DNA from: Marseilla massiliensis | GTDB taxonomy: Bacteria; Bacteroidota; Bacteroidia; Bacteroidales; Bacteroidaceae | Reading direction: 5' to 3' | Length of the DNA stretch: 64,000 nucleotides | NCBI RefSeq assembly: GCF_016899855.1 | Contig: NZ_JACJJG010000003.1 | Span: 1-64,000, forward strand | In this document: positions 155 to 62,478 of the stretch, piece by piece | Position numbering within the stretch: the first letter of the stretch is position 1 | Layout: each line of letters opens with the position of its first letter | Program-made: the position numbers and the translations under genes | The notes under the pieces: generated by a model | Told to the model about the DNA's origin: nothing | The model's database searches: none | What the model saw: only the letters and a program-made list of their open reading frames with translations

Positions 155-286
155 GACCGGGAATGTAAAGTAAAGCGGCACATTTCCCGATGCGATGTCA
201 ACCATTCCAGTACCTCTATCCAGAGTGTGTAAAATAATGTAGTTTATTTAAACAAAAACTGTCAACCTATTTCAGGAAAAGACATA

Positions 287-374
287 AACGCCGTCATTAG
301 CAAGCTTAAAGACGGTGTTTGGCATACTAAAAGACCGCTTTTTACAGTGTCAGCATACCGGATTTATTGCACAA
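287..374. repeat. 22-bp-period degenerate array, copy 1
   Basis: Four consecutive 22-base units at 287, 309, 331 and 353 have cores CGCCGTC, GACGGTG, GACCGC and ACCGG, each followed by a T-rich stretch. The first two cores are complementary: AACGCCGTC (287-295) pairs with GACGGTGTT (311-319) with one G-T wobble. It belongs to the same family as the arrays near 17.5, 25.6, 32.1, 41.1, 44.4 and 54.5 kb. Confidence 0.6.
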
Positions 375-17396: not shown

Positions 17397-17482
17397 GTAC
17401 CACACACATTCCCGTTTATAGACCGTTCATGTTCAATTCAATAATTTAAAGGTAACTTATTGAGTTTCAACAGTTTTATAAT

Positions 17483-17570
17483 AGACGGCATTTTAGCTTT
17501 ACAGAGGCGGCCTTTTACAAGACTAAAGACCGTCTATTGTAAAGCGAAAGGCCGCCTTTCGAAGTGCGAA
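17483..17570. repeat. 22-bp-period degenerate array, copy 2
   Basis: Four exact 22-base steps at 17483, 17505, 17527 and 17549 with cores GACGGC, GGCGGCC, GACCGTC and GGCCGCC, each followed by a T-rich run. AATAGACGG (17480-17488) is the exact reverse complement of CCGTCTATT (17530-17538), and GGCGGCC (17506-17512) of GGCCGCC (17550-17556). The order A-B-A'-B' allows alternative hairpins or a pseudoknot. A fifth core (CGGCATATT) follows about 3 bases out of phase. Confidence 0.7.
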
Positions 17571-25439: not shown

Positions 25440-25582
25440 TAAATCGTTACTTTTTTATTTAAAAATCTTTCAATTTATTGCTTTTGTTGTTTATTTATGG
25501 ATAAATATTACAGTCCTCGGCTATTATTGGCCGACTATTCTGGCTTTATTGTCCTTGCGGTAAACATTTAAAGAAAAGTAAA

Positions 25583-25670
25583 TCATGGCCTTTTACATTA
25601 CGAAAGACCATGATTTACACAACAAAAGGCCGTATTTCGCGGCACGATAAATGGCTTTTTGCAAAATGGT
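25583..25670. repeat. 22-bp-period degenerate array, copy 3
   Basis: Units at 25583, 25605, 25627 and 25649 with cores ATGGCC, ACCATG, GGCCGT and ATGGC followed by T-rich runs. GTAAATCATGG (25578-25588) is an exact reverse complement of CCATGATTTAC (25608-25618). GGCCTTTT in unit 1 is an exact reverse complement of AAAAGGCC at the unit 2/3 border. Confidence 0.68.
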
Positions 25671-32066: not shown

Positions 32067-32127
32067 ACTAACTTTTAAATTTTATATATCAACACGGATA
32101 ATTTAAAATTACTAAAGTAAATTTCAT

Positions 32128-32215
32128 AAAAAGGCATATAACTTCATCATAAACCGTGTTTTGCCCAACCAAAAGCCGCATTTCATGACGCAAAACATCA
32201 TTTATTGCAATTCTT
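32128..32215. repeat. 22-bp-period degenerate array, copy 4
   Basis: Units at 32128, 32150, 32172 and 32194 with cores AGGCAT, ACCGTG, AGCCGC and ACATC, each followed by T-rich sequence. TGTTTTGC (32157-32164) is an exact reverse complement of GCAAAACA (32190-32197). The last unit is weak. Confidence 0.55.
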
Positions 32216-39401: not shown

Positions 39402-40454
<1,053 letters not shown>

Positions 40455-40560
40455 TTAAAATAATATCCTTAAACAATATACCTCTTTTCGCAGTACCTGC
40501 ACTTTTATGCATGAATATCTCAAATGGCCTGAACCATAAGCTTTTTTCTTTTTCCGAGCG

Positions 40561-40568
40561 CAAAATTA
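40561..40568 (-). promoter_or_regulatory. -7 box of gapA
   Basis: The minus strand reads TAATTTTG, implying a leader of about 120 bases before the gapA ATG. No clear -33 element. Confidence 0.5.
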
Positions 40569-41132
40569 CAAAAAATATTTTATAATATGGTAGACTTATA
40601 ATCTTAAATTAAGTAAAAAAATAAAGAGTTCTTAATCTGTATAATTGCCGTTGATATTAAACAATATGTCATAAAGAAGGACCTTTTCGTGTAATATGAT
40701 TTACATATGCAGCGATAAAGTTTGTTTTTCCTTTCATTTGTTTATCTCATGTAAGTTTAGAATACAACAAACATGTTTTTGGGAATAATTCATACAAATC
40801 TGAAAATGCAATATAGAGTTTGCACTTATTATCCCTTTAAATATCCGTACGGCCGGATTTTTATGGAATAACTGCTGTTTGGCTGAATTTATTTTTATAG
40901 AAAAGCAGCATTATGTGTGTCTGTTTTTTATATGAAAAACAAACGTATAGTATAATATCTGCATCTTGATTACGTTGTCAATCGTGGCAATATGTTATCC
41001 TGCCCATACTTCTATATAATTAATAAGGTATATTCATGGGTTTCGGTCGGAATCGGATTGTTGCTTGCTAATACCTTTATATATAAATGCATCTTTCGTT
41101 ATTCTGTTCAAGTGTTGTGAGGCTTAATTCCG

Positions 41133-41264
41133 AAAAGCCGCCTTTCGGCTTATGAAAGATGGCTTTTCGCGTTCTAAAAGGCCATCTTTTACAAGCCAAA
41201 AGACGGCCTTTTGAAAAACGGGCATATAGTTCCACCCCATTTAAGGCGGTTTATGCGGCATTGA
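41133..41264. repeat. 22-bp-period degenerate array, copy 5
   Basis: Units at 41133, 41155, 41177 and 41199 read AAAAGCCGCCTTTC, AAAGATGGCTTTTC, AAAGGCCATCTTTT and AAAGACGGCCTTTT, each followed by about 8 variable bases. A weak unit at 41221 and AAGGCGGTTTA at 41243 continue in phase. AAAGATGGC (41155-41163) is the exact reverse complement of GCCATCTTT (41181-41189). AAAAGGCC (41176-41183) is that of GGCCTTTT (41205-41212). Confidence 0.72.
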
Positions 41265-41345
41265 AATCCGTGCACACATGCATTAAAATTAGTTAAATCA
41301 CGGACTTGGTAAGTAAACATCAATAAATTCACAATATTATTTACG

Positions 41346-41353
41346 TAACTTTG
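41346..41353 (+). promoter_or_regulatory. -7 box of ArnT-like gene
   Basis: TAACTTTG, 56 bases before the ATG; the -33 region lacks a clear TTTG. Confidence 0.5.
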
Positions 41354-41409
41354 CATGTTGTTAATAAAAAAGCGAAAAGCAATAATTTAAACAATAAAAA
41401 ACAACTTAC

Positions 41410-43134
41410 ATGAGAAAGCAAGATAACCGGTACATTTGGATTTTACTTGTAATCTGTATCCTGTCGTTAATCATTTTTCTCGGTAACGCTCTCTTCAATA
41501 CGAAAGGTGAGCCACGCGAGGCAATAGTCGCAGTGTCAATGCTGAAATACGGTAATTGGATTCTGCCTATAAATAATGGTGTGGATATTGCCTATAAACC
41601 GCCGTTTTTCCATTGGTGCATAGCATTTTTCTCTCTGTTTCAGGGATATGTGTCCGAATTTACGTCACGGTTGCCCTCAACATTGGCACTCATCGCAATG
41701 ACTCTTGTCGGCTTCAAGTTCTACGAAAAAAGGAGTACGCCACAAATTGCCCTCATCGCATGCCTTGTAGCCATTACAAGTTTTGAGGTTCACCGTGCAG
41801 GTACCAACTGCCGTGTGGACATGCTGCTGAGCGCATTAATGGTGATTTCTCTTTACCAACTATATAAATGGGGTGAAAAAGGGTTGCGTGGAGTGCCTGT
41901 TGTGGCTATACTTTGCATGAGTGCAGCTTTCTTGACCAAAGGGCCGGTGGGCATAGTTCTGCCATGCCTTGTTACTGCCGTATTCCTTTTAATAAGTGGT
42001 TACAGGTTTGTAAAGTTGCTCTATGCTTTTGCGCTTGTGGCACTTGCTTCATGCGTTATCCCAGCGTGTTGGTACGTAGCAGCATATATGCAAGGCGGAG
42101 ATACCTTCATGCAGTTGGTATACGAAGAGAACGTGCTGCGCTTCTTAGGCAAGATGTCATACTCATCTCACGAAAATCCGGCCTACTATAATGTCATTAC
42201 CGTCTTGTCAGGGTATTTGCCTTACACGTTGCTGGTGGTGATGTCGTTGTTCGTCTTGAAATACAAGAAGCCTGAAGGGACGTTGAAATCATGGTGGAAC
42301 AGGCTTGTTGACTATATAAAATCAATGGATGACACAAGATTGTTCTCATTGTTGAGCATAGTAATAATATTTATTTTCTATTGCATTCCCAAGAGCAAGC
42401 GTAGCGTCTACCTGTTGCCCATATATCCGTTTATTGCCTATTTCCTTGCCGAATACATAATATATCTTGCCAAAAAACACTCAAGGATAATACGCTCATT
42501 CGGATATACGCTGTCCGGTATATATATAGCGTTGCTTGCGTTGTTTGTGGCTGTAAGGGCGGGAATTGTGCCAGAGACAATATTTTCAGGCAAACACGCA
42601 GCCGAGAACATTGCGCAAATGAGGGCGTTGGAGACTGCCGGTATTGGAATAACCGACATAATAATTATATTATTGCCGGTTATAGCCGCCTTACTGTTCT
42701 GGAAATCAAGGAAGAGCGACAGCATACGCCAAGTGTATTCAATGCTTGGTATTGTCATCGCGGTATTCATGTCGCTTGACGGCTTCTTCCAGCCGATAGT
42801 GCTTAACACTAAGTCGGACAAGCCCGTAGCCATGAAATTGAACAGCATAGTGGGCGATGGTACGGTGTATTCGTACCGTCCGCAGAGTGCAGCAGGTGAC
42901 CCGATGCGATCGTTTACCATCAATTTCTACATGAACGACAGAGTTGTGCCTTTCGAAGCTGCCATGCCCAAGAGCGGCTACATGCTGTCTGGCAATGACG
43001 ATATTGAGGCATTCAAGGAGACGTATCCTGATTATTCCGTTACGGAAGTGGTAGACTTCAAGCATAAAAGTTGCGACGACAAGAAAATGCTACACCTTTA
43101 CCGGATTTACGACACGTCACGCAATAAGAGGTAA
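41410..43134 (+). CDS. ArnT/PMT-like membrane glycosyltransferase
   Basis: 574 residues, about 11-12 hydrophobic helices and a C-terminal soluble domain (about 450-574). The first extracytoplasmic loop carries the family acidic pair region TKGEPREA. Such GT-C enzymes move a sugar from a polyprenyl-phosphate carrier to lipid A, a protein or a glycan outside the inner membrane. The next gene encodes an ArnC/GtrB/DPM-like synthase that could make the lipid-linked donor, 42 bases downstream. The acceptor and sugar are unknown. Confidence 0.78.
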   Translation: MRKQDNRYIWILLVICILSLIIFLGNALFNTKGEPREAIVAVSMLKYGNWILPINNGVDIAYKPPFFHWCIAFFSLFQGYVSEFTSRLPSTLALIAMTLVGFKFYEKRSTPQIALIACLVAITSFEVHRAGTNCRVDMLLSALMVISLYQLYKWGEKGLRGVPVVAILCMSAAFLTKGPVGIVLPCLVTAVFLLISGYRFVKLLYAFALVALASCVIPACWYVAAYMQGGDTFMQLVYEENVLRFLGKMSYSSHENPAYYNVITVLSGYLPYTLLVVMSLFVLKYKKPEGTLKSWWNRLVDYIKSMDDTRLFSLLSIVIIFIFYCIPKSKRSVYLLPIYPFIAYFLAEYIIYLAKKHSRIIRSFGYTLSGIYIALLALFVAVRAGIVPETIFSGKHAAENIAQMRALETAGIGITDIIIILLPVIAALLFWKSRKSDSIRQVYSMLGIVIAVFMSLDGFFQPIVLNTKSDKPVAMKLNSIVGDGTVYSYRPQSAAGDPMRSFTINFYMNDRVVPFEAAMPKSGYMLSGNDDIEAFKETYPDYSVTEVVDFKHKSCDDKKMLHLYRIYDTSRNKR

Positions 43135-43176
43135 AGGATAAGCGTTTTTACATCAAAAATGTAAAAGAAAAAGAGT

Positions 43177-44139
43177 ATGAAGCTTGCGATAATTGTACCA
43201 TGTTATAACGAAGAGGCCGTATTGCCAGAGACCACGAAGCGCCTTTGTGGCATATTGGATGACATGACGGCGTCCGGGAGCATCGACGATGGCATTATAT
43301 TGTATGTTGACGACGGCAGCCGTGACTCTACATGGAGCCTTATTGAACAGTTCTCGGGCGCTGACAATAAAGTGGCAGGTCTCAAGCTGTCACACAATCG
43401 GGGGCATCAACACGCGTTATGGGCAGGCCTCGAGTGGGCTGCCGAGCATGCCGACGCGGCCGTGTCGATAGATGCCGACCTACAGGACGACGAGACCGTG
43501 ATACCGAAGATGGTCGGGCTGTACAACGCCGGAGTAGACATTGTGTACGGCGTGCGCAAGGAACGAGATACGGACACCTACTTTAAGCGGACCACGGCGC
43601 TCATGTTTTACAAGCTGATGAACGTGCTCGGCGGCCATGTCGTGTACAACCACGCCGACTACCGTCTGATGAGCCGGCGCACGCTGCAGGCCCTCGTGTC
43701 GTTTCCAGAGCGTAACCTGTTCCTCAGGGGGATGGTGGCCTCGCTCGGATTTCCGTCGGCATTCGTGTATTACGACCGCAAGGCCCGTTTCGCCGGCACG
43801 TCAAAATATCCGCTGACCAAGATGTTCAGCTTTGCCGTAGACGGCATAACGTCGTTCTCCACCCGTCCGCTGCGCTTTATAACATACCTTGGGCTCGTGT
43901 TCATCCTCATCGCCTTAGGCGTGATAATATACGCCCTTGTTGAATATTTCAACGGCACCACGATACAGGGATGGACGTCACTGCTTGTCTCGGTGTGGTT
44001 TATCGGCGGCGTGGTGCTGCTTGCGTGCGGCATAATAGGCGAATACGTGGGCAAGATATACATCGAGAGCAAGGGACGCCCGCGGTATTTCATCGAGAAG
44101 GAGACGGGCACCAACCGTGCCACGGACGCCCGCTCCTGA
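43177..44139 (+). CDS. GT2 polyprenyl-phosphate sugar synthase (GtrB/ArnC-like)
   Basis: 320 residues: a GT2 catalytic domain (about 1-225) with IIVPCYNEE, YVDDGSRD, the DADLQDDE metal motif (DXD-like) and AGTSKYPLTK, then two C-terminal membrane helices (about 230-255 and 265-290). It should transfer a sugar from a nucleotide donor to undecaprenyl phosphate for use by the preceding ArnT-like enzyme. The second half is clearly more GC-rich than the upstream gene, a composition shared with the GH43 gene on the other side of the gap. Confidence 0.83.
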   Translation: MKLAIIVPCYNEEAVLPETTKRLCGILDDMTASGSIDDGIILYVDDGSRDSTWSLIEQFSGADNKVAGLKLSHNRGHQHALWAGLEWAAEHADAAVSIDADLQDDETVIPKMVGLYNAGVDIVYGVRKERDTDTYFKRTTALMFYKLMNVLGGHVVYNHADYRLMSRRTLQALVSFPERNLFLRGMVASLGFPSAFVYYDRKARFAGTSKYPLTKMFSFAVDGITSFSTRPLRFITYLGLVFILIALGVIIYALVEYFNGTTIQGWTSLLVSVWFIGGVVLLACGIIGEYVGKIYIESKGRPRYFIEKETGTNRATDARS

Positions 44140-44152
44140 GCCACAGTTACCT

Positions 44153-44180
44153 GCGCGGGCGTATCACGTAACGCCTGCGC
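44153..44180. other. GC-rich hairpin after GT2 gene
   Basis: GCGCGGGCGT (44153-44162) pairs with ACGCCTGCGC (44171-44180) with one G-T wobble around an 8-base loop, 14 bases past the stop. No T-run follows, so it may be a transcript-end stabiliser rather than a terminator. Confidence 0.55.
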
Positions 44181-44297
44181 TCGGGATTACACATTGTACA
44201 CGAATCGGGCCAAACTGCTTACACATTGAAAAACGTTGACGCTGTAGAAGTGGCGCGGCCAAAATTTTCTTTCCGTCAGACTTAAATACGCCAATTC

Positions 44298-44344
44298 TGG
44301 GTGTGCAACCGTAATTCGTTGAACTACTTACGGTTACACACCCA
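44298..44344 (+). terminator. Hairpin, possible terminator
   Basis: TGGGTGTG-C-AACCGTAA (44298-44314) pairs with TTACGGTT-A-CACACCCA (44328-44344), 16 of 17 pairs, with a 13-base loop. AAATAGTTTTT follows. It runs directly into the first unit of the repeat array. Confidence 0.5.
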
Positions 44345-44495
44345 AAATAGTTTTTGTGCAACGAAAAACGGCCTTTTTTACGCAGAAAAGCCATGTTTTT
44401 CGTTGAGTTCGCTATGCTTTCTCGTTGAGGGAAGATAGCTTTTTCATTGAGGAAAGATAGTTTTCTCGATGAGAAAGCATAGCTTACTCTATTTA
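44342..44495. repeat. 22-bp-period degenerate array, copy 6 (longest)
   Basis: Seven units start at 44342, 44364, 44386, 44408, 44430, 44452 and 44474. Cores after the A-run are ATAG, CGGCC, GCCATG, GCTATG, GATAGC, GATAG and GCATAGC, each followed by a T-run. Units 3-6 also share a 3' tail close to CGTTGAG. GCTATGCTTTCTC (44411-44423) is an exact reverse complement of GAGAAAGCATAGC (44471-44483). This copy shows the repeat unit most plainly. Confidence 0.78.
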
Positions 44496-44657
44496 ATAAA
44501 TAATTCTTTACAAACAGAAGAGTCGTTTTGCTAAGTCTACATGGCATTTCCTAGAAATTCTTTTCCAGATTGCGCTGAAAGCATTAACTTTCCTATATGA
44601 CGTTTTGAAACTTTCCAGTCGAACAGTGTTTACAAACGTACACAGCTATGGCAACGG

Positions 44658-44693
44658 TAAAATAAAAGAGGAAAGGCACCTGCCTTCCCTCTT
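44658..44693 (-). terminator. Terminator of GH43 gene
   Basis: On the minus strand AAGAGGGAAGGC (44693-44682) pairs with GCCTTTCCTCTT (44677-44666) with one wobble, followed by TTATTTT. Confidence 0.75.
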
Positions 44694-44717
44694 AAGAACT
44701 TTATATCCTACGCCGCG

Positions 44718-46361
44718 TCACTTCGTCACGCGGAACCAGTCAGCGTCTATCCAGCCACGGTTTGCCTTCCCGGCAGGCTCGGCGGCCACGAAACCAATCT
44801 TAGCGCCAATCCATTTGCCCTCACGCATGGTAAACTCGTCGCCGGCCGGCTTGAACTTCTTGCCGTCAAGGCTGTACGAGAAGCTGCACTTGCCGTTGTC
44901 TACCGACATGCGCATGTATATATCCTCATGTATGCCCGGTTGGTAATCAATCTTGTCAGCCGCCGTAGGTTCAAGCGTGGCTATTACCTTCACGGTCTCA
45001 GCCTTGCCCTTGTCGGCATTGCGGCACGTCAACTGCTGTAGCTGGAAGGCGTCCCCCACCCTTTTCACCACCAATGCCGAGTAGTCGAGTCCCATCATGA
45101 TAATCCCGCCAAACTGGTTCTGGTCCTTTGACGTGAAGCGCAGTTTAGCCGTAGCGGTAAACTTGTCGGCCGGCGTCTTCTGCAGCAGCAGGTTGGGCAC
45201 CTCCCAAAGGTTTACATAGTTATCGCTTAACTTGTGCGTATATATTCTGAACTTACCAAACGCAGTAGGCATGCCGAACATCTGGTTGTAGTTTGCGTGC
45301 CACTGCCATTGCAACCCCATCCTTGGCTCGTTGAATTCGTCGCTCTCAACCGGATTCTGTATCGGCCACGCCTGCGAAGTCTTGGGCTTACGGTACGTAA
45401 TGACAGGTTCTCCGCAATAATCCCCGTCCTTGTCGACGCCCATTACAGGCCAGTTGTCCTTCCACGTAACAGGCTGCAAATGCACTACACGCCCGTAACA
45501 TCCCTTGTCCTGGAAATGCAGGAACCAGTCCTCGCCATATTGCGTATGTATCCATGCGCCTTGGTGCGGGCCGTTAACGCTACTCTTACCCTGAGCCAGC
45601 ACGGTCTTGCTCTCGTACGGGCCGAACGGTTGCTTTGCCCTCATTGCCACCTGGAAGCCCGTAGGCACGCCGCCCGCCGGGAACATAATCCAGTACCAGC
45701 CGTTGCGCTTGTAGAACTTAGGCCCCTCGCACGTTCTGTTTTCCGTTCCGTTACCGTCAAATACGATTACAGGGTCGCCTATCGCCCTCGTTCCGTCGGC
45801 AGACAGCTCACGCACGACGATGATCGAAGCAAAGCGCGAACGGCTGTTCGCATAAGCATATGTAAGATAGCAACGGCCGTCATCGTCCCAAAGCGGAGTT
45901 GTGTCTATCATGCCCTTGCCCGATATAACGCATATAGGCTCCTCCCAATTACCGGCGGGGTCTTTCGTCTTGACCATCATTACGCCACGGTCGGGGTCCC
46001 CCCAATAGATATAGAACTCACCGTTATGGTGACGAATGCTCGGCGCCCACACCCCGTTTCCGTGCGACGGCATGTCGAACACCTCGGTGGGATATTGCGT
46101 CTTTAGCGCATGCCCGATTATCTCCCAGTTCACCAAATCCTTCGAATGAAGGATGGGCAGACCGGGAATACAGTTAAACGAACTTGCCGTAAGATAGTAA
46201 TCCTCGCCTACAACACATGCGTCTGGATCACTATAGTCGGCATTAATCACGGGATTTGTGTAAGTGCCGTCGCCATTATCCGGGCACCATACCTCTGACT
46301 TGTACTGTGCATTGGCAAAAATAGGTAAGAAGGCCAATACCAACAAAATTTGTTTTTTCAT
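44718..46361 (-). CDS. Secreted GH43 beta-xylosidase/arabinofuranosidase
   Basis: Exported hemicellulose-type glycosidase, 547 residues. It has a signal peptide (about 1-18), a five-bladed GH43 domain with predicted base Asp 45 in DYSDPDACV, pKa-tuning Asp in MIDTTPLWDDDG and acid Glu in CEGPKFY, then a C-terminal beta-sandwich (about 350-547). The start MKKQILLVLAF (46361) is chosen because it yields the signal peptide; a longer frame adds 23 charged residues. No SusC/SusD pair is nearby, so it is not in a typical utilisation locus. The substrate may be xylan or arabinan oligosaccharides. Confidence 0.87.
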   Translation of the reverse strand: MKKQILLVLAFLPIFANAQYKSEVWCPDNGDGTYTNPVINADYSDPDACVVGEDYYLTASSFNCIPGLPILHSKDLVNWEIIGHALKTQYPTEVFDMPSHGNGVWAPSIRHHNGEFYIYWGDPDRGVMMVKTKDPAGNWEEPICVISGKGMIDTTPLWDDDGRCYLTYAYANSRSRFASIIVVRELSADGTRAIGDPVIVFDGNGTENRTCEGPKFYKRNGWYWIMFPAGGVPTGFQVAMRAKQPFGPYESKTVLAQGKSSVNGPHQGAWIHTQYGEDWFLHFQDKGCYGRVVHLQPVTWKDNWPVMGVDKDGDYCGEPVITYRKPKTSQAWPIQNPVESDEFNEPRMGLQWQWHANYNQMFGMPTAFGKFRIYTHKLSDNYVNLWEVPNLLLQKTPADKFTATAKLRFTSKDQNQFGGIIMMGLDYSALVVKRVGDAFQLQQLTCRNADKGKAETVKVIATLEPTAADKIDYQPGIHEDIYMRMSVDNGKCSFSYSLDGKKFKPAGDEFTMREGKWIGAKIGFVAAEPAGKANRGWIDADWFRVTK

Positions 46362-46444
46362 ACTTGGAAATATTATTTTGGTTTGTTTTAATTTATAGTG
46401 AGTTTGAAAATCAGCCCGTTTCTTGGACACACGAACAGACTTTT

Positions 46445-47524
46445 CTATAACACCTTGACAAAGTTATTCTCTATATAATCAAATTTCAACTTGTAATTGA
46501 CATCATGGATTATGTGCATCAACTGGGTCGGGTCAGTAATGTCAGTACCGAATGAATTTGCGACATGCCCCATTGTGCGTCTTACATTTATTTCTACGCA
46601 TGGATGAAGTAAGTAACCGCATCCGCCATCTTTTACCACTATCATCATATCGACACCAAGCGATCCCTTGTAACATTTAAAGAAACTTGTGGAAAAATAA
46701 GTCTTAAGCCGTTCAACTATATTATCAATAAGGGATAAAGACAAAAATTCGCCCATCATGTGAGATTTTTCCAACTCTGACGCAATAATGCTTCCCGTAT
46801 AGTTACTTCCACCAGTCCTGAACAAAGACAGGCCGCGATAATCAACTCTGCCATTGCCATAAGAATAGAATTCCATTGCAAAATCTTTTACCTTCTTGTA
46901 GTACGGCTCAACGGAAATGCCACCTTGGCGTTCTATTACCTTTCTAATCCATCCGTCAACCGACGGTGTAATGCAACGCTCAATGTATCGTACCCCACGA
47001 CCACTGCTACTCCACGGTGCCTTGGCTACTATTTTTCCATATTTACGTAATGAATCATATACTGCGTCAATATTCTTGTAATAGAAACTTTCACCACACG
47101 TGACGTCCTCTATATCCTTACGCAAAACCGTAAGCAAGGCACACGTTTGCCGTCTATCGGATAAATCACGTATATATTCCAATGTGTCGTCGGCGGGCAA
47201 GACATCTGGATTTACGCCGGCATCAGACAGCTGTTGTCTGACGGCTTTGTCCCATCCCCATGGCTCAATGGCAGAAAACACCAAATGCCTCAAGTCATTT
47301 GCAGTAACGAAAAGTACGTCAGCATGCCGTTTGCCTATTTGCGACAGAGCCTTAATAGCATAATACACATCGTCGACAAGTATCAAATCGCCTTCACCAG
47401 CCCATAATGCAGGAAGGAATCCAAGATTTACCTTAAATTCCTGTATGGCATGCGGCAATGTAAAATATGCCTTGTCCGCCGCAAGCGCCATATCATGTTC
47501 CGGATTAAAGATATGTAATTTCAC
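46445..47524 (-). CDS. Uncharacterised ATP-grasp-like protein
   Basis: 359 residues, not matched by me to a named enzyme. No signal peptide or membrane helix. It opens with HIFNPEHDMALA. A middle stretch KAPWSSSGRGVRYI (near 165) looks like the lysine and glycine-rich loop of ATP-grasp enzymes, and PCVEINVRRTMGH near the C-terminus looks like their metal-binding Glu-x-Asn. This suggests ATP-dependent ligation of a carboxylate to an amine or similar, but the substrate is unknown. It sits alone between GH43 and the AAA ATPase gene. Confidence 0.6.
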   Translation of the reverse strand: MKLHIFNPEHDMALAADKAYFTLPHAIQEFKVNLGFLPALWAGEGDLILVDDVYYAIKALSQIGKRHADVLFVTANDLRHLVFSAIEPWGWDKAVRQQLSDAGVNPDVLPADDTLEYIRDLSDRRQTCALLTVLRKDIEDVTCGESFYYKNIDAVYDSLRKYGKIVAKAPWSSSGRGVRYIERCITPSVDGWIRKVIERQGGISVEPYYKKVKDFAMEFYSYGNGRVDYRGLSLFRTGGSNYTGSIIASELEKSHMMGEFLSLSLIDNIVERLKTYFSTSFFKCYKGSLGVDMMIVVKDGGCGYLLHPCVEINVRRTMGHVANSFGTDITDPTQLMHIIHDVNYKLKFDYIENNFVKVL

Positions 47525-47716
47525 TTCAACAAAATTATTGATTGGTGCAAAGATAGTGTAAACATAGAGAAGTGCAAAATAAATTTTTAACGAAGTTAGC
47601 TTTTATTTGTGCAGATTATGTAATAATAAATACAGGAAATTCCTCACATAGCAGCTGGCATAACCTGCCAGCTTATGCAAAAATAATAAAAAAATACGAG
47701 TTTTTGCAAAGCATGG

Positions 47717-47747
47717 TTTGCAAATAAAGAATAAAATGCTATCTTTG
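47717..47747 (+). promoter_or_regulatory. Promoter of AAA ATPase gene
   Basis: TTTG at 47717-47720, 19 bases, TATCTTTG at 47740-47747; the ATG follows 25 bases later. Confidence 0.85.
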
Positions 47748-47771
47748 CAAAAGAAAACAAATTGAAAAAGA

Positions 47772-48959
47772 ATGGAAGCTTTCTTTCGCACCCATACTTA
47801 TTTAGTAGAACACACTAATGCCCCTGTACGACGTCAATTGATGGACGAAATCGATTGGTCAGACAGGCTTATCGGCATTAAAGGCACTCGTGGTGTTGGA
47901 AAGACGACATTTCTTCTTCAATACGCAAAAGAGCATTTTTCCCCGACAGACAGACGTTGTTTATATGTAAATATGAACAATTTTTATTTTCAAGGCCGAG
48001 GAATAGCAGATTTTGCGAATGAGTTTTGCAAGACAGGCGGTAGAGTTTTACTAATAGACCAAGTATTCAAGGAACCCAATTGGAGCCATGAATTAAGATT
48101 GTGTCATGACCAGAATCCGGAGCTGAAGATTGTTTTTACCGGTAGTAGTGTTATGCGCCTGAAGGAAGAAAACCCAGAACTAAGCGGAATTGTAAAAAGC
48201 TATAATCTGAGAGGATTTTCCTTTCGCGAATTTCTCAATCTTACAGCAGGAACCCATTTCCATTCATACACACTTGAGGAAATTGTGCATAACCACGAGC
48301 ATATAACGAGACAAATATTACCGGAAGTGTCTCCGAACAAATATTTTCCATTATATTTGCATCATGGGTTTTATCCTTTCTTTCTTGAGAACCGTAATTT
48401 CTCGGAAAATCTGCTTAAAACGATGAACATGATGACGGAAGTTGACATCCTGTTAATCAAGCAGATAGAACTTAAATATCTTACAAAAATAAAGAAGCTG
48501 TTTTACCTTCTGGCGCTTGACGGCCCAAAAGCTCCCAACGTAAGCCAACTGGCAAATGACATTGAGACAAGCCGTGCGACAGTGATGAATTACATTAAAT
48601 ACCTTGCAGAAGCAAGATTGATAAATGTAATATATCCTGTTGGGCAAACATTTCCGAAAAAGCCAAGCAAGGTGATGTTGCATAATCCGAACCTTATGTA
48701 TGCCATTTATCCGATAAGGGCTGAACAGCAAAATGTGATGGAAACGTTTTTCGTCAACTCGCTATGGAAAGACCACATCGTAAACCAAAGCAACAAAGAC
48801 AACTACTATATTATAGATGAAAAACGAAAATTCAGGATTTGCGATGCAACCAAATGTGGTAAAATACGCATGAATCCAGATACAATATATGCAAGATACA
48901 ACACGGAAATAGGCAAGGACAACCAAATTCCGCTATGGCTATTCGGATTTTTATATTAA
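47772..48959 (+). CDS. AAA ATPase (AAA_14/DUF4143-type) with Walker B Gln
   Basis: 395 residues. AAA domain (about 20-190) with P-loop GTRGVGKT (38-45) and the sensor stretch KIVFTGSSVMRL. A winged-helix-like region (about 240-300) and a C-terminal nuclease-like DUF4143 region follow, ending in the common IPLWLFGFLY. The Walker B position, which in relatives reads IDE, is LLIDQ here (Asp 96, Gln 97), so ATP hydrolysis may be impaired. The family's function is unsettled; many members look like mobile toxin/defence-type genes. It ends 36 bases before nifJ. Confidence 0.78.
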   Translation: MEAFFRTHTYLVEHTNAPVRRQLMDEIDWSDRLIGIKGTRGVGKTTFLLQYAKEHFSPTDRRCLYVNMNNFYFQGRGIADFANEFCKTGGRVLLIDQVFKEPNWSHELRLCHDQNPELKIVFTGSSVMRLKEENPELSGIVKSYNLRGFSFREFLNLTAGTHFHSYTLEEIVHNHEHITRQILPEVSPNKYFPLYLHHGFYPFFLENRNFSENLLKTMNMMTEVDILLIKQIELKYLTKIKKLFYLLALDGPKAPNVSQLANDIETSRATVMNYIKYLAEARLINVIYPVGQTFPKKPSKVMLHNPNLMYAIYPIRAEQQNVMETFFVNSLWKDHIVNQSNKDNYYIIDEKRKFRICDATKCGKIRMNPDTIYARYNTEIGKDNQIPLWLFGFLY

Positions 48960-48995
48960 ACTAACAAGATACACTAACATTAATGTTTTATTAAA

Positions 48996-51900
48996 ATGGC
49001 TAAAGAAAAAAAGTTTATCACATGTGATGGTAATGAAGCAGCCGCACACATAAGCTATATGTTCAGCGAGGTTGCAGCCATTTACCCTATCACTCCGTCA
49101 TCTCCAATGGCGGAACATGTTGACGAGTGGGCCGCAAAAGGACGCAAAAACCTTTTCGGTCAGACCGTTTTCGTTCAAGAAATGCAATCTGAGGCTGGTG
49201 CGGCAGGTGCTGTTCATGGTTCTCTTCAGGCTGGAGCACTTACCACTACATTCACAGCTTCACAGGGATTGCTCCTTATGATACCTAACATGTATAAGAT
49301 TGCCGGCGAACTTTTGCCTTGCGTTTTTGATGTTTCGGCACGTACACTGGCATCTCATTCTCTTTGTATTTTCGGTGATCACCAGGACGTAATGGCTTGC
49401 CGCCAAACAGGTTTCGCACTCTTCTGTGAAGGTTCTGTACAAGAAGTAATGGACCTTACAGCTGTAGCGCACCTCGCATCTCTTAAGACTTGCGTTCCTT
49501 TCCTCAACTTCTTTGATGGTTTCCGCACATCTCATGAATATCATAAGATTGAATTGCTTGAGCAGGAAGATATCGCTCCGTTAGTTGACATGGATGATGT
49601 AAAGCGTTTCCGTGACCGTGCGTTGTCACCTGAGCGTCCTGTTACACGCGGTACAGCAGAGAATCCTGAAACATTCTTCACACATCGTGAGGCAAGCAAT
49701 GAATATTATGATAAAGTACCTGAAGTTGTTGAGCACTATCTTGGTGAAATCAGCAAGATTACAGGACGTGAATATCACTTGTTCTCATATTATGGTGCAG
49801 AAGACGCAGACCGTATGATTATACTTATGGGTTCTGCAACAGAAGCTGCACGTGAGGCTATTGACTACCTGAATAAGAACGGAGAGAAAGTAGGTATGAT
49901 TTCAGTTCATCTCTATCGTCCGTTCTCTGTTAAACATTTGCTGGCATCTGTTCCCGCAACTGTTAAGCGCATAGCTGTTCTTGACAGAACAAAAGAGCCA
50001 GGCGCAGAGGGAGAACCTCTATATCTTGACGTTAAGAGTGCTTACTATGATGTTGAAAATAAACCTCTCATTGTTGGAGGACGTTATGGTCTTGGTTCTA
50101 ACGATACAACTCCGGCACAAATAATCTCTGTATTCAACAATTTGAAATTGAACGAGCCGAAGAACCACTTTACCTTGGGTATAGTTGATGACGTGACGTT
50201 CACCTCACTTCCGAAGGTTGAGGAAATGGCTCTCGGCGGAGAAGGAATGTTTGAAGCTAAATTCTATGGCCTTGGAGCGGACGGTACCGTAGGAGCAAAC
50301 AAGAATTCTGTCAAGATCATCGGTGACAACACTGACAAGCACTGCCAAGCATATTTCTCATATGACTCAAAGAAATCAGGCGGTTTCACATGTTCACACC
50401 TTCGTTTCGGTGACACGCCTATTCGCAGTACATATTTAGTAAACACTCCGAATTTCGTTGCATGCCACGTACAGGCTTATCTGCATATGTACGATGTAAC
50501 TCGTGGTTTACAGAAGAACGGAACATTCCTTCTGAATACTATTTTTGAAGGTGAAGAGCTTGTAAACTTCATCCCGAATAAGGTTAAGCGTTATTTCGCA
50601 CAGAATAATATTACCGTATATTATATTAACGCAACAAAGATTGCACAAGAGATAGGCCTTGGCAACCGTACCAATACAATTCTCCAAAGTGCATTCTTCC
50701 GCATAACAGGTGTCATCCCAACAGACCTCGCCGTTGAACAGATGAAGAAATTTATCGTTAAGTCATACGGTAAGAAGGGTCAGGACGTTGTTGACAAGAA
50801 CTATGCAGCTGTTGACCGCGGTGGAGAATATAAACAGCTTACGGTTGATCCGGCATGGGCAAACCTGCCTGACGATGCTGTAGTTGAAGACGATGCTCCA
50901 GCATTTGTAAAAGAGTTGGTTCGTCCTATCAACGCACAAGCAGGTGATCTCTTGAAGGTTTCTGACTTTATAAAGCATGATACAGTTGACGGAACATGGG
51001 AGAATGGAACTTCAGCTTATGAAAAGCGTGGTGTTGAGGCATTTGTTCCTGAATGGAATGCAGAAAACTGTATACAATGTAACAAGTGTGCATATGTTTG
51101 TCCTCACGCTGCTATCCGTCCGTTCGTTCTCACTGACGAGGAGCTTAAAGGCTTTGACGGAACAACTCTTGAGATGAAGGCTCCTGCAGCAATGAAGGGC
51201 ATGCACTTCGTTATCGAACCGAGTGTTATGGACTGTCTCGGATGTGGCAACTGTGCCGATGTTTGTCCTGGCAACCCGAAGAAGGGCAAAGCCCTTACGA
51301 TGGTTCCGTTTGCCGGCAATGACGCAGAAGCTGCCCGTTGGGACTACCTCGTAAAGAACGTTACAAGCAAGCAAAATTTGGTAGACATTAAGTCTAACGT
51401 TAAGAATTCTCAGTTTGCTCAACCCCTGTTCGAATTCTCTGGTGCATGTTCCGGCTGTGGTGAGACTCCTTATGTGAAGTTGATCTCACAACTCTTCGGT
51501 GATCGTGAAATGATTGCAAACGCAACGGGCTGTTCTTCAATTTATTCAGCTTCTATACCATCAACGCCTTACTGTAAGAACGCTGACGGTCACGGACCTG
51601 CATTTGACAACTCACTCTTTGAGGACTTCTGCGAGTTTGGTATGGGAATGGTACTCGGAAACAAGAAGATGAAAGAGCGTGTTACTATACTGCTCAATGA
51701 AGCTATCGCAAAAGATGATACTCCTGCTGAGTTCAAGGCTGCTGCTCAAGAGTGGATTGAAGGCAAGGAGGACGCTGATGCTTCTAAGGCTGCAGCTGCT
51801 AAGCTTAAACCGCTTATCGCTTCAGGTGCAGAGGCAGGTTGTCCGATATGCAAAGAGCTGAAGACACTTGATCACTATCTTGTTAAACGCAGCCAGTGGA

Positions 51901-52562
51901 TCATCGGCGGTGACGGTGCTTCTTACGACATTGGTTACGGAGGTCTCGACCATGTGATAGCAAGTGGTGAGGATGTAAATATCCTTGTACTTGATACTGA
52001 GGTTTATTCAAATACAGGTGGACAGTCGTCAAAAGCAACTCCTCTCGGCGCAATCGCACAATTTGCAGCTCAGGGTAAGCGTATACGCAAGAAGGATCTT
52101 GGTCTTATGGCAACAACTTATGGTTATGTATATGTCGCACAGATTGCAATGGGCGCAGACAACGCACAGTGCTTGAAGGCTATCCGTGAGGCTGAAGCAT
52201 ACCATGGACCTTCTGTCATCATCGCATATGCTCCTTGTATCAATCACGGATTGAAGGCTAAAGGCGGTATGGGCAAGAGTCAGGCTGAGGAAGCTAAGGC
52301 TGTTGAATGCGGATACTGGCACTTGTGGAGATATAATCCAGAACTTGCTGAGCAGGGTAAGAATCCGTTTACACTCGATTCTAAGGAGCCGGATTGGAGT
52401 AAGTTCCATGACTTCCTGTTGGGCGAGGTTCGTTATCTCTCTGTAAAGAAGGCTTATCCTAACGAAGCAGAAGAACTGTTCGCAGAAGCAGAGCGCATGG
52501 CTAAATTGCGTTATAAGAGCTACATCCGCAAGTCTAAGGAAGATTGGAGCGAAGAAGCGTAA
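48996..52562 (+). CDS. nifJ: Pyruvate:ferredoxin (flavodoxin) oxidoreductase
   Basis: Converts pyruvate to acetyl-CoA and CO2 while reducing ferredoxin, the key fermentative step in anaerobes. The 1188-residue protein is the single-chain form. It has the N-terminal pyrimidine-binding domain (IYPITPSSPMAEHVDEW), gamma domain, two [4Fe-4S] motifs (CIQCNKCAYVCPHA and CLGCGNCADVCPGNP, about 690-760), a further cluster cysteine set (ACSGCGETPY) and the thiamine diphosphate domain (GGDGASYDIGYGGLDH). Codon use is biased as in highly expressed genes. No consensus promoter is visible in the 36-base gap upstream. Confidence 0.97.
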   Translation: MAKEKKFITCDGNEAAAHISYMFSEVAAIYPITPSSPMAEHVDEWAAKGRKNLFGQTVFVQEMQSEAGAAGAVHGSLQAGALTTTFTASQGLLLMIPNMYKIAGELLPCVFDVSARTLASHSLCIFGDHQDVMACRQTGFALFCEGSVQEVMDLTAVAHLASLKTCVPFLNFFDGFRTSHEYHKIELLEQEDIAPLVDMDDVKRFRDRALSPERPVTRGTAENPETFFTHREASNEYYDKVPEVVEHYLGEISKITGREYHLFSYYGAEDADRMIILMGSATEAAREAIDYLNKNGEKVGMISVHLYRPFSVKHLLASVPATVKRIAVLDRTKEPGAEGEPLYLDVKSAYYDVENKPLIVGGRYGLGSNDTTPAQIISVFNNLKLNEPKNHFTLGIVDDVTFTSLPKVEEMALGGEGMFEAKFYGLGADGTVGANKNSVKIIGDNTDKHCQAYFSYDSKKSGGFTCSHLRFGDTPIRSTYLVNTPNFVACHVQAYLHMYDVTRGLQKNGTFLLNTIFEGEELVNFIPNKVKRYFAQNNITVYYINATKIAQEIGLGNRTNTILQSAFFRITGVIPTDLAVEQMKKFIVKSYGKKGQDVVDKNYAAVDRGGEYKQLTVDPAWANLPDDAVVEDDAPAFVKELVRPINAQAGDLLKVSDFIKHDTVDGTWENGTSAYEKRGVEAFVPEWNAENCIQCNKCAYVCPHAAIRPFVLTDEELKGFDGTTLEMKAPAAMKGMHFVIEPSVMDCLGCGNCADVCPGNPKKGKALTMVPFAGNDAEAARWDYLVKNVTSKQNLVDIKSNVKNSQFAQPLFEFSGACSGCGETPYVKLISQLFGDREMIANATGCSSIYSASIPSTPYCKNADGHGPAFDNSLFEDFCEFGMGMVLGNKKMKERVTILLNEAIAKDDTPAEFKAAAQEWIEGKEDADASKAAAAKLKPLIASGAEAGCPICKELKTLDHYLVKRSQWIIGGDGASYDIGYGGLDHVIASGEDVNILVLDTEVYSNTGGQSSKATPLGAIAQFAAQGKRIRKKDLGLMATTYGYVYVAQIAMGADNAQCLKAIREAEAYHGPSVIIAYAPCINHGLKAKGGMGKSQAEEAKAVECGYWHLWRYNPELAEQGKNPFTLDSKEPDWSKFHDFLLGEVRYLSVKKAYPNEAEELFAEAERMAKLRYKSYIRKSKEDWSEEA

Positions 52563-52614
52563 ATTAAATGAGAAAGAAGTTGTGCGTTGAAAAACCTCAA
52601 CTGACACATATTTT

Positions 52615-52653
52615 AAAAGAGATTGCATATTTACGATATATGCAATCTCTTTT
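52615..52653. terminator. Bidirectional terminator after nifJ
   Basis: A perfect 16-bp stem (52615-52630 with 52638-52653), 7-base loop, AAAA and TTTT at the ends. The following 165 bases up to comEC hold nothing I can assign. Confidence 0.9.
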
Positions 52654-52819
52654 ACTTATAAAGACATTAAGACAAAACCAATAATAAAATAAATCACTGT
52701 CGCGCAAATATAAAATCCGCAGATAACTCTGTTTATATTAACATTGGCACTATCTCCCGTTATATTTCCAAGCATTAAATGCTGTAAAATATTTTGATAC
52801 AGACTTCAGCAACTGTCAG

Positions 52820-54340: not shown

Positions 54341-54741
54341 GTTACATCAAGTAGTTTGGATATGTCGCATTGAAGCATAGACATGTTTTCACGTTATAAT
54401 GCAAATATAAAACATTTTATTGATGAAAGGAAACAACGACGAATAAAAAACTCTTTATGTGTTCAAGAAAACACATTACCCAAATGCCCAGTACAATATT
54501 CGGAAATATAATAAAGCCCGGCAATATTATCAAACGCAGTCAATGACATTGCAAAATGCCGTGTTTTAAACGATAAACGACGGTGTTTTACAATGTCATT
54601 GACCGCATTTCATTTTATAAGTAATGCACGCCCATCCACTGAAAGAAAGGATTTATATCACCTATGGAAATTGTAAATCAAAAGATAAGTCATACTTAAA
54701 AGTGATAATTTATAATCGCACTTGAGTTGTGAGCATTATCG
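54341..54741. other. Gap between comEC and chimeric Tat protein gene
   Basis: No gene seen. It contains a -7 box for comEC (minus strand TATATTTG, 54419-54412, no clear -33) and the seventh 22-bp-period array (54532-54619). Confidence 0.65.
54532..54619. repeat. 22-bp-period degenerate array, copy 7
   Basis: Units at 54554, 54576 and 54598 read AAATGCCGTGTTTT, AACGACGGTGTTTT and ATTGACCGCATTTC. A weak unit starts at 54532. GTCAATGACATTG (54539-54551) is an exact reverse complement of CAATGTCATTGAC (54591-54603), joining the first and last units. Confidence 0.65.
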
Positions 54742-55473
54742 TCACCTACCCATAGTTTCCTTTACTTTTGCCAACAGGTTTGGAATGTCCAATTTCTGGG
54801 GACACTTAGCTATGCATTTGCCGCATGAAACATTAGCTTTACGTATAAGAGTTATACTTTCGTCCGGTGACGAATGGCCTGTAGCCAAAATAATGTTTGC
54901 TTCTGCGCAAATCTCCATTACTTTTACAACTTCAGGCAATACATTGCCATTGTCATCCAATACCGGAATGCCTCGCTCTTTACGTCCTTCATATTTGTAT
55001 TGGTATGAAGCGTCCAATGTCGGCAGCCATATACAGCGGCAAAGACCTCCGCTTGTTTCTACGGCTTTACGCGCAGCGAAAGGGTTAACCCTATCACCGT
55101 GAACTCGATTCATGCAAAAACTTCCATAACATTCAGCTCCAGATAGTGCCTGACGTATAATATACGCCCTGTCATGACAGCTGAAATCATTAGACTTAAA
55201 CATAACGGCACGATAACCGGCATGCACGGCATCTTGCATAAAATGATATTCATCAATGCACCGCTCACGTGAATCAGGACTACAGTGCAAATGAATGTCA
55301 CACACTCCTTTTAATATTGCATCACCTGTTAATTTGTCATTTTCAGCATTATCAATTTTAGGCAACATTTCCATTGCCTGGCCAGGAAGAATACTCTTCA
55401 TAAAAAACGCCCCTCCGACAATTGAGGAAGTCTTGATAAAACTTCTCCGGTTTATTTTTCCGTTATCTGTCAT
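54742..55473 (-). CDS. Tat-signal DUF6282-like protein with iron-sulfur tail
   Basis: 243 residues. The N-terminus carries a twin-arginine signal (RRSFIKTSSIVGG, 9-21). Next is a metal-hydrolase-like barrel start with His 61 and His 63 in CDIHLHCSPD, running to ILATGHSSPDES (195-206), as in DUF6282 amidohydrolase-like proteins. From about 213 it switches to VSCGKCIAKCPQKLDIPNLL, which resembles the C-terminal [4Fe-4S] tail of aldo/keto reductases. Only three cluster cysteines remain (217, 220, 224). The layout suggests an in-frame fusion that removed the end of one gene and most of another. Activity is doubtful. Confidence 0.55.
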   Translation of the reverse strand: MTDNGKINRRSFIKTSSIVGGAFFMKSILPGQAMEMLPKIDNAENDKLTGDAILKGVCDIHLHCSPDSRERCIDEYHFMQDAVHAGYRAVMFKSNDFSCHDRAYIIRQALSGAECYGSFCMNRVHGDRVNPFAARKAVETSGGLCRCIWLPTLDASYQYKYEGRKERGIPVLDDNGNVLPEVVKVMEICAEANIILATGHSSPDESITLIRKANVSCGKCIAKCPQKLDIPNLLAKVKETMGR

Positions 55474-55489
55474 AGCTCTATTTTTTATG

Positions 55490-55497
55490 CAAAGATA
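55490..55497 (-). promoter_or_regulatory. -7 box of Tat protein gene
   Basis: The minus strand reads TATCTTTG, 16 bases before the ATG; -33 not clear. Confidence 0.5.
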
Positions 55498-55677
55498 ATC
55501 GCATAAGATAAAATATATAGTAACACTTTTATCGAGATTTGTATTTCTTTTACTGATTATGAGTTGTTCTTATTTGTTTTTAGCTATATTGACTGGCTTA
55601 TCATAATAGCAAAATCATATAAATACATATTTTCAATCATTTTTTTTCTAATTATTAAGTATCTCACTTTTTTGTAT

Positions 55678-55685
55678 TATCTTTG
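55678..55685 (+). promoter_or_regulatory. -7 box of mce operon
   Basis: TATCTTTG, about 94 bases ahead of the chosen mce start; -33 not clear. Confidence 0.55.
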
Positions 55686-56183: not shown

Positions 56184-56213
56184 TAATATTATTATAAGGT
56201 ATTAAGGCATGAC

Positions 56214-56262
56214 GGCTTTATGAAATGTTGCGTTGCTTTTCAATGCAACATTTCATAAAGCC
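56214..56262. other. Long perfect hairpin between mce and mmdA
   Basis: 18-bp perfect stem (56214-56231 with 56245-56262) and a 13-base loop. No T-run follows, so it is not an ordinary terminator. As an intercistronic hairpin it could mark a processing site or damp read-through into mmdA. Confidence 0.7.
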
Positions 56263-56294
56263 CAACGGCCCTCACAACTAATAAATAAGAATCA

Positions 56295-57848
56295 ATGAGC
56301 AAACAAGTAGAAAAAATCAAGGAGCTTATCGCAAAACGCGAACAGGCTCGTCTCGGAGGTGGCGAAAAAGCCATTGAGAAACAGCATGCACGTGGCAAAT
56401 ATACGGCCCGTGAACGTATTGACATGCTTCTTGATGAAGGAAGTTTCGAAGAGTTCGACATGTTCAAGCTGCACCGTTGTACCAACTTCGGCATGGAGAA
56501 AAAACAATATTTAGGCGACGGTGTCGTTGCCGGATGTGGTACTATAGATGGAAGGCTGGTTTATATCTTCGCACAGGATTTTACTGTCAATGGCGGCTCT
56601 CTGTCTGAGACTATGGCTCAGAAGATATGCAAGGTTATGGATATGGCAATGAAAATGGGTGCCCCGGTTATCGGTATAAATGACTCGGGCGGTGCACGTA
56701 TCCAGGAAGGTATATGTGCATTGGCCGGATTTGCGGAAATCTTCGAACGCAACATTCTTGCTTCAGGTGTAATTCCACAGATCAGCGGAATTTTCGGGCC
56801 TTGCGCTGGTGGTGCCGTATATTCTCCTGCATTGACTGACTTTACCCTGATGATGGAAAACACATCATACATGTTCCTTACCGGACCGAAAGTGGTAAAG
56901 ACTGTGACTGGAGAGGATATCGACCAGGAACATCTCGGTGGCGCAAGTGTACACTCTACGAAGAGTGGTGTAACACACTTTACTGCTTCAACTGAAGAAG
57001 AGGCAATGGAAATGATCAAGACATTGCTTAGCTACATTCCTTCTAACAACATGGAAGAGGCTCCACGAAAAGAATGCACCGACCCGATTAACCGTATGGA
57101 AGATTCGTTGAACGAAATAATCCCGGAAGATCCAAATCAGGCTTATGATATGTACAAGGTTATCGGTGCGATAACTGACAACGGTGAATTCTTTGAAGTA
57201 CAACCTAAATTTGCAAAAAATATAATTGTGGGATTTGCACGTTTCAACGGGCAAAGTGTAGGTATCGTTGCAAACCAGCCTTCATGCTATGCCGGCGTAT
57301 TGGATGTAAATTCAAGTAGAAAGGGAGCACGCTTTGTTCGATTCTGCGATGCGTTCAACATACCTATCGTCAGCCTTGTTGACGTTCCTGGATTCCTCCC
57401 TGGAACCGGTCAGGAATATAATGCGGTCATCCTGCACGGAGCCCAGTTGCTTTATGCATATGGTGAAGCAACCGTACCAAAGGTTACAGTTACATTGCGT
57501 AAGAGCTATGGAGGAAGTCATATCGTGATGGGTTGTAAGCAACTCCGTACAGACATTAACTATGCATGGCCTTCTGCTGAAATTGCAGTTATGGGTGCAA
57601 GTGGTGCCGTTGCTGTACTGTGTGCAAAGGAAGCAAAAGCGCAAGACGACCCCAAAGCCTTCCTTGCTGAGAAAGAGGAAGAATATACTGAAATGTTTGC
57701 AAATCCATACCAGGCTGCAAAATATGGATATATTGACGACGTTATAGAACCTCGAAATACACGCTTCCGTATTTGCCGTGCATTGGCTCAGTTGGCAACC
57801 AAGAGAGACGGACTGCCAGCCAAGAAACATGGCAATATCCCGATGTAA
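56295..57848 (+). CDS. mmdA: Methylmalonyl-CoA decarboxylase/carboxylase alpha chain
   Basis: Carboxyltransferase subunit of a biotin-dependent acyl-CoA (de)carboxylase, 517 residues. Two crotonase-like halves are visible: the N-terminal with [16 protein letters not shown] and [13 protein letters not shown], and the C-terminal with [20 protein letters not shown] and [12 protein letters not shown]. It moves CO2 between methylmalonyl-CoA and the biotin carrier encoded two genes downstream. Together with mce it completes the end of propionate formation. Confidence 0.92.
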
Positions 57849-62457: not shown

Positions 62458-62478
62458 CAAATGTAAAGTTTTAACACG

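Follow-up and report, generated by a model that had tools for sequence, protein, structure and literature searches.

The gap at positions 44342-44495 carries A-runs and T-runs repeated every 22 bp, and it raises the question of what kind of element such an array is and whether similar arrays nearby share its nature. The window (the whole stretch of DNA analysed here, 64 kb with 41% GC) lies in a genome of 3.49 Mb in 321 contigs (G000, called here the own genome), and its GAPDH is 97-98% identical to GAPDH of uncultured Prevotella and Xylanibacter rarus. A sequence-only reading had grouped seven arrays of the window into one family. Our results show a family of elements with a length of four units, pairwise complementarity between units, species-specific cores and even spacing along the chromosome. 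We give an about even chance to the reading that this family is an old, dispersed, non-coding, structured and slowly copying Prevotella repeat, related to PINSR, whose copies are mutually exclusive over ~3 kb.

The 22-bp unit and the four-unit element

The phased units of A-run, core and T-run described for the seven places are visible at all of them, though the array at 32128 and the margins of that at 287 are weak. The unit can be written as AAAGRCSGYCTTT YRCNNNGYR, that is, a 13-bp near-palindromic core plus a 9-bp linker. Autocorrelation of the window's intergenic DNA over lags 5-59 peaks at 22 and next at 44, with coding DNA peaking elsewhere. Counting both strands, 86 arrays of at least 20 bits were found in 453 kb of the own genome and none in order-2 Markov sequence; at a threshold of at least 14 bits the unit model returned 93 arrays against 5. 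Genome-wide, the two-unit pattern occurred 821 times forward and 807 times in reverse, compared with 8 and 9 for the reversed control. These counts support one common 22-bp design that is intergenic, keeps its phase and is present in many copies per genome.

The number of repeats, said to be three to seven, clusters instead at four: a free chain model applied to the 453 kb gave 48 arrays, 29 of them with four units and nine with three, the others having one or two units (7/48) or more than four (3/48). The array given as 41133-41264 is likewise a four-unit element, at 41133-41220. One longer array of about eight units, with three overlapping four-unit calls, was seen at L033:14590-14820.

A four-unit model, which fixes the unit count by design, was run on 705 kb of the own genome, where it identified 81 elements, and on 396 kb of a relative (G004), where it identified 62. 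One copy spans ~116 bp, of which the four 22-bp units take up 88 bp, preceded by a short 5' end and followed by a 3' TGATTATCA..GTTAC box; conservation among the elements of both genomes drops beyond about -6 to +22. The box directly 3' of unit 4 resembles YTGATTATCARNNNGTTAC, and a TGA-N3-TCA-like word lies at +1/+2 in 19/69 and 17/57 strong elements, whereas words of this kind have a background rate of 0.0008 per position. A comparable word follows the units in three other genomes (G010, G012, G077) and, by a looser search, in six of the 22 strong elements of P. nigrescens.

When a young copy with 60-bp flanks was compared with the own genome, 72 further matches were obtained, all inside query positions 49-169 (the element being 61-148), and the best further copy had 94% identity over 104 bp with unrelated flanks. 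Matches confined in this way, between unlike flanks, indicate that the element is a discrete dispersed repeat. Subfamilies exist, since pairwise identity reaches 0.90 against a column-shuffled maximum of 0.72; another pair near 0.89 was discounted as a contig-end duplication. Gene conversion between fixed copies could be an alternative source of similar copies with unlike flanks.

Copies in the window

The features of the window are listed in Table 1. Six of the seven arrays match the covariance model with E-values of 5e-7 or better, and 44342-44495 with only 8e-4; weaker matches were found at 62436-62519 (3e-4) and 18649-18755 (7.5e-4). The best copy of the window, at 41133, has a single-strand DNA fold z of -4.4, and it is itself (model match 41127-41242) among the 60 training sequences of the covariance model. 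The gap of G004 that corresponds to the element at 17481 is likewise filled by an element (L170:7728), and two related contigs (L089, L091) carry elements at the place corresponding to the one at 32127. The outer flanks of this last element and of the one at L051:140 adjoin in G004 (L170:18543 and 18697), which would fit a rearrangement in G000 with its ends at or near elements.

Table 1. Coordinates of four-unit elements and of the repeat around 44342-44495 in the window
Feature	Position	Strand	Evidence or remark
Degenerate four-unit element	286..373	+	Unit model; covariance model 272-371, E 4.7e-7
Four-unit element	17481..17568	+	Unit model; covariance model E 1.9e-18 (- strand), 1.3e-13 (+ strand)
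Four-unit element, between dnaB (upstream, - strand) and leuA	25581..25668	+	Unit model; covariance model E 1.7e-22
Degenerate four-unit element	32127..32214	+	Unit model; covariance model E 2e-8
Four-unit element, upstream of GAPDH gene	41133..41220	+	Unit model; covariance model E 2.4e-24
~400-bp repeat enclosing array 44342-44495	44201..44611	+	Four full-length copies in own genome
Long inverted repeat directly 5' of array	44297..44344	none	Sequence; fold of 44290-44400, z -3.5
85-bp inner module, 22-bp units between inverted ends	44405..44489	none	Opposite orientation in 2/4 copies
Four-unit element	54523..54610	-	Unit model; covariance model 54501-54616, E 7.4e-12
Probable extra degenerate copy, missing from the sequence-only reading	56192..56303	-	Covariance model E 2.2e-5

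The array at 44342-44495

The grouping of all seven arrays into one family holds for six of them, and the array at 44342-44495 is part of a ~400-bp repeat. The three other full-length copies of this repeat (L251, L252, L253) are 88, 81 and 78% identical to the one in the window, and the repeat had no match in 148 other genomes. Its 85-bp inner module shows an identity between copies of 0.61-0.67 on the same strand and of 0.84-0.87 when inverted; the outer parts of the repeat are collinear at 0.79-0.91. The presence of 22-bp units in an invertible module indicates that four-unit modules occur in a second kind of repeat, in which they can invert. The inverted repeat directly 5' of the array is changed in both arms in the other copies. 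The ~400-bp repeat may be a structured RNA or a mobile element.

Pairing of the units

Among 126 elements from two species (G000 and G004) that score at least 45, units 1 and 2 are complementary at 8.58 of 13 pairs, against 7.83 for shuffled partners (z 6.4), with 13 perfect pairings where 0.8 were expected. The figures for units 3 and 4 are 10.12 against 9.25 (z 8.8), with 27 perfect pairings against 4.8, and complementarity of units 2 and 3 did not go beyond shuffled partners in the same elements (z 0.4). Pairing of 1-2 and 3-4, and not of 2-3, points to two tandem hairpins. An alignment (A1) of 60 of the 104 listed elements contains 107 double-change cells for the two-helix structure against 48.3 after shuffling, a number reached in none of 500 shuffles; for a 2-3 helix the same alignment has 18 against 19.8. 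The pattern is repeated in 40 elements of six further dialect genomes and P. falsenii (z 3.8, 0.0 and 3.3 for units 1-2, 2-3 and 3-4), a set drawn from 48 typed hits of which six were dropped for length and two as a group of two. In 20 elements of P. nigrescens z is 3.1 for 1-2 and -1.1 for 2-3, but only 1.6 for 3-4. Covarying hairpins of the linkers, suspected by eye, gave z near 0.

The element is palindromic in parts, and each arm is nearly palindromic, with the arms two helical turns apart. Judged from their complementarity, units 1+2 and 3+4 can form two tandem stem-loops as a single strand; both hairpins are present in only 45/125 minimum-energy folds, and perfect stems occur only in a minority of copies. 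A 22-bp ladder had been proposed as the whole design. A plain ladder of protein sites is not enough, because it does not predict that units 1-2 and 3-4 pair and that changes in one partner are compensated in the other.

The A and T tracts do stand in helical phase, as had been suggested, with a mean resultant of 0.70 at 10.5 bp against 0.35 at random positions, so that curvature on one face of the DNA is geometrically possible. Phased A-tracts serving curvature only, with no other function or common origin, are nevertheless hardly credible as an explanation, since they fail to account for the common cores, the four-unit length, the 3' box and the covariation.

Covarying hairpins could also be RNA elements, namely stem-loops that lie where transcripts end and either stop transcription or stabilise the mRNA, and the fold z of -4.4 to -12.9 obtained for four elements folded as DNA is in line with this. 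Yet Rfam 15 at gathering score returned only two tRNAs and no other family in the window, and a terminator scan of 40000-56500, which detected 19 terminators where 15.2 were expected, flagged no element, although hairpins of this kind could escape a scan with loops limited to 8. Intrinsic terminators, hairpins with a long T run behind them at gene ends, are thus not what the scan of that region indicates. The position of the elements relative to genes bears on the same alternative.

Placement relative to genes

The statement that no array lies in a gene is nearly true: of 143 elements in G000 and G004, 115 are in gaps of at least 200 bp, 26 in short gaps or at edges, and two have their midpoints inside genes, gene positions here being our own predictions. 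Among gaps of at least 200 bp in the two genomes, elements fill 57/139 co-directional, 18/39 convergent and 37/74 divergent ones. Within co-directional gaps, 46 of the 57 elements are in the half nearer the upstream stop, at a median distance of 68 bp from that stop and 185 bp from the next start, as elements at transcript ends would be. This asymmetry favours RNA elements, but half of the divergent gaps, where no gene ends, are filled as well. The strand relative to co-directional genes is mixed (25 same, 32 opposite; 7 and 16 in G004 alone), and an RNA role leaves the even spacing unexplained. We regard RNA elements as improbable. On the reading of a slowly copying repeat, location in gaps would reflect tolerance, between genes and away from starts.

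Even spacing and the element-free stretch

Two elements in one gap were not observed in either genome, with 0/65 filled gaps against 13.4 expected in G000 and 0/55 against 11.8 in G004, counted after merging elements less than 150 bp apart; unmerged, there is one such case in each. The distances between elements are also more even than random. Mean spacing in G004 is 5.8 kb with a CV of 0.40 against 0.65 at random, and 5/43 distances are below 3 kb where 13.6 were expected; for G000 without contig C111 the mean is 7.6 kb, the CV 0.60 against 0.89, and 3/56 distances are below 3 kb against 14.9. The control placed elements at random with at most one per real gap, and none of 2000 draws was as extreme in either genome.

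The second replicon of P. nigrescens (200 kb), using 25 of 27 elements with the two weak ones omitted, gave a CV of 0.60 against 0.86 (p 0.01), with three distances below 3 kb against 7.0 (p 0.02) and two below 2 kb against 3.9 (p 0.19). Six further genomes, represented by 20-kb pieces and with weaker model hits omitted, had 0/21 distances below 3 kb against 5.7 expected (p 0.001).

With contig C111 included, the CV of G000 is 1.55, not low against 1.30 at random, although close pairs are still rare (3/62 distances below 2.5 kb against 24.4). Positions 40001-120000 of this contig (L022-L025, 80 kb) are element-free. This stretch encodes TraG, coupling-protein families, ArdC and an AbiJ-like protein, and it is probably a conjugative element, because TraG, a coupling protein and ArdC are found there. 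An element-free 80 kb with conjugation genes shows that new DNA is not quickly colonised, which counts against the reading of a copying repeat. PINSR too has been reported as largely absent from conjugative and mobilisable transposons (Naito et al.; PMC4755523, in the accessible part of the paper).

Corresponding gaps in G000 and G004 showed limited agreement. Strict correspondence holds for 22 gaps; both genomes have an element in two of these, G000 alone in one, and neither genome in 19. By single gene sides, G004 is filled at 9/15 where G000 is filled and at 4/18 where G000 is empty (5' sides 5/9 vs 2/8, p 0.22; 3' sides 4/6 vs 2/10, p 0.09; not significant). The elements of corresponding gaps were no more alike than random pairs in eight cross-species pairs (identity 0.43-0.65, percentiles 0.06-0.91). 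The comparison is compatible both with slow turnover in permissive gaps and with old copies that diverged past recognition.

Even spacing with about one element per gap could also be expected if the host used the elements to organise its chromosome. They would then be evenly spaced intergenic anchors, about a topological domain's length apart, that serve a nucleoid protein or a topoisomerase or mark a domain boundary. Four in-phase 22-bp sites would be bound cooperatively on one face of the DNA, with selection keeping the copies and gene conversion homogenising them. The lack of preference for a gap type, the helical phasing of the tracts, the element-free conjugation region and the partial, non-significant agreement between gene sides would all suit such anchors, as would the report that P. 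intermedia strains have about three quarters of PINSR regions in common (PMC4755523, accessible part). On the other hand, binding needs no complementarity of units 1-2 and 3-4 without 2-3, many genus members have few or no copies, and one binding protein is a poor fit to many cores in one genome and wholly different cores between species. Host anchors are in our judgement unlikely, but a serious rival to the slowly copying repeat.

Distribution among genomes and core dialects

A covariance model (R1) was applied to 98 genomes with strict filters and at most 37 candidates scored per genome. Of the 60 genus genomes, 20 had at least four matches and 12 at least 25, G000 and G004 matching by construction; none of the 38 outgroup genomes reached four. 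At E <= 0.001, 34/60 genus genomes matched, 14 of them with one to three matches only, and 8/38 outgroup genomes had one to three. The model misses carriers: G018 has 122 matches to the two-unit pattern of the own genome and none to the covariance model. A core-blind pattern of A- and T-runs gave a forward excess in many genus genomes, among them the own genome (514 vs 111), G004 (216 vs 24), G077 (588 vs 36), G070 (304 vs 39) and G083 (359 vs 75), compared with a highest excess of 17 among outgroup genomes. The reversed A/T-run geometry was commoner than the forward one in G003, G026, G069 and G080.

The cores differ between species. GRCSGYC is found in the own genome, G004 and G083, CGNGCCG in G077, GGTTATC in G010, GGGCTGC in G012, GGGCATC in G075, TCGCCCA in G080, CCTACGG in P. 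falsenii, and CAGGCTC and others in P. nigrescens. They are also numerous within one genome: the 324 units of G000 carry 93 distinct 7-bp cores (the top four making up 43%) and 80 units of P. nigrescens carry 47, which argues against one sequence-specific reader or one conserved operator core.

Uptake sequences, as in Haemophilus and Neisseria, are species-specific and evenly spread single words of 9-12 bp. The dialects and the even spacing of the elements resemble such signals, by which self DNA would be marked and spread through biased uptake, and a ComEC-like gene is present in the window; ComEC-like genes are common in bacteria. An 88-bp element of four units with paired arms is, however, not a single 9-12-bp word, there are many cores per genome and almost no copies within genes, and we consider uptake signals very improbable.

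Relation to known repeats

The sequence-only reading recognised no described element, but the version found in P. nigrescens and P. intermedia is very probably a published one. PINSR was described in 2015 as an intergenic, non-coding repeat of oral species with 177 and 184 copies in two strains; its carriers include P. nigrescens and P. falsenii, no terminal inverted repeats were reported, and the 188-bp repeat appeared confined to one clade by PCR with specific primers (PMC4755523, accessible part). The elements of P. nigrescens and P. falsenii, with alignments of 189-214 bp, are very probably PINSR, an identification that rests on species, intergenic place and length and not on a comparison of consensus sequences. 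Our element is similarly intergenic, non-coding and of high copy number, as the two-unit matches indicate. Unlike PINSR, similarity within the own genome is restricted to about 116-121 bp, short of 188 bp, and instead of one clade the four-unit element occurs in a third of the genus genomes surveyed, with several cores unlike those of P. nigrescens. To the PINSR description our element adds a period of 22 bp, the pairing of units 1-2 and 3-4, a 3' box and even spacing along the chromosome; period, hairpins and spacing have no mention in the accessible part of that paper (PMC4755523). The open-licence literature searched describes neither the design of the element nor its spread beyond that clade nor its even spacing.

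REP, BIME and REPIN sequences, associated with RAYT transposases, are intergenic palindromes present by the hundreds and often as paired hairpins (PMC3733652, accessible part). The four-unit element resembles them in its hundreds of intergenic palindromic hairpin copies of species-specific sequence, and differs in its fixed register of four 22-bp units and its even spacing. REP palindromes have a GTAG or CGTC tag at one end, and inspection of the element consensus brought no conserved end tag to notice. It also differs in the lack of a RAYT-like partner, as the Y1 transposase family PF01797 had no match in the own genome, with matches in 5/14 control genomes. BrickBuilt, a MITE of Porphyromonas gingivalis with 19 copies, 23-nt units and IS5-family-like terminal inverted repeats, is likewise a Bacteroidales intergenic repeat of short tandem units, but its 23-nt consensus differs, and a fixed unit number or hairpin pairing is not reported for it in the accessible part of the source (PMC4596501).

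Our element also departs from the definition of a MITE in having no fixed-length target-site duplication: 141 elements contained one 12-bp and two 7-bp flanking repeats, the rest being as in random or shuffled sequence. The transposon ends of Tn7 and Mu contain several transposase sites and confer target immunity. A series of ~22-bp sites within about 90 bp, together with the mutual exclusion of copies, is reminiscent of such ends; the four-unit element differs from them in having no second end, no consistent target-site duplication and no known transposase. As for an outside source, viral contigs gave no exact match for two element patterns, phages no match to the element, and plasmids no match for two of three queries, the third matching P. 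nigrescens only, so that these searches did not bear out phages, viral contigs or plasmids as the origin of the element.

Proposed copying and exclusion

We return to the reading of a slowly copying repeat related to PINSR. Copying with pairing accounts for the discrete units and their subfamilies as well as for stems that drift and for the dialects. The copying would be slow and would depend on a step that reads structure and not a fixed sequence, and such a step would let the stems drift into species dialects with pairing kept. For the even spacing, target immunity or selection is needed in addition: a resident copy may discourage another within ~3 kb, either by an effect similar to target immunity or through selection against close pairs. 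More tentatively, and as something we would still bet against, the copies may make up a chromosome-wide lattice with nodes identified by pairing, an exclusion of ~3 kb and intervals of 6-8 kb in intergenic DNA. Whole genomes could then change dialect, and the lattice would be either a new type of mobile element, read by structure and with its spacing built in, or a chromosome ruler.

Dispersed bacterial repeats are usually detected by sequence identity, and the four-unit family keeps its architecture and pairing as its sequence changes between species, which is why it was previously noticed in a single clade. Regular spacing is unusual for a dispersed repeat and points either to a putative mobiliser that confers target immunity or to a part in chromosome structure. 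With a covariance model and a named carrier, P. nigrescens, experiments can address both questions in a genus common in gut and mouth.

Other arrays and repeats

Further repeats were noted. The arrays at loci L069-L073 of G024 have a 22-bp period and about six units; their core is CGTTTGCG and their linker CTACGA, they have no covariance-model match, and they may be a different family. Other arrays of 22-bp period have ATCATCGTGAT cores (P. micans L095:13741-14100) or ATGACGTCAT cores (Prevotella sp. L097:2319). Another dispersed repeat, of TTAAGAATTAAGAG-like units, is found at L038:11560-11700 and in many places in G004.
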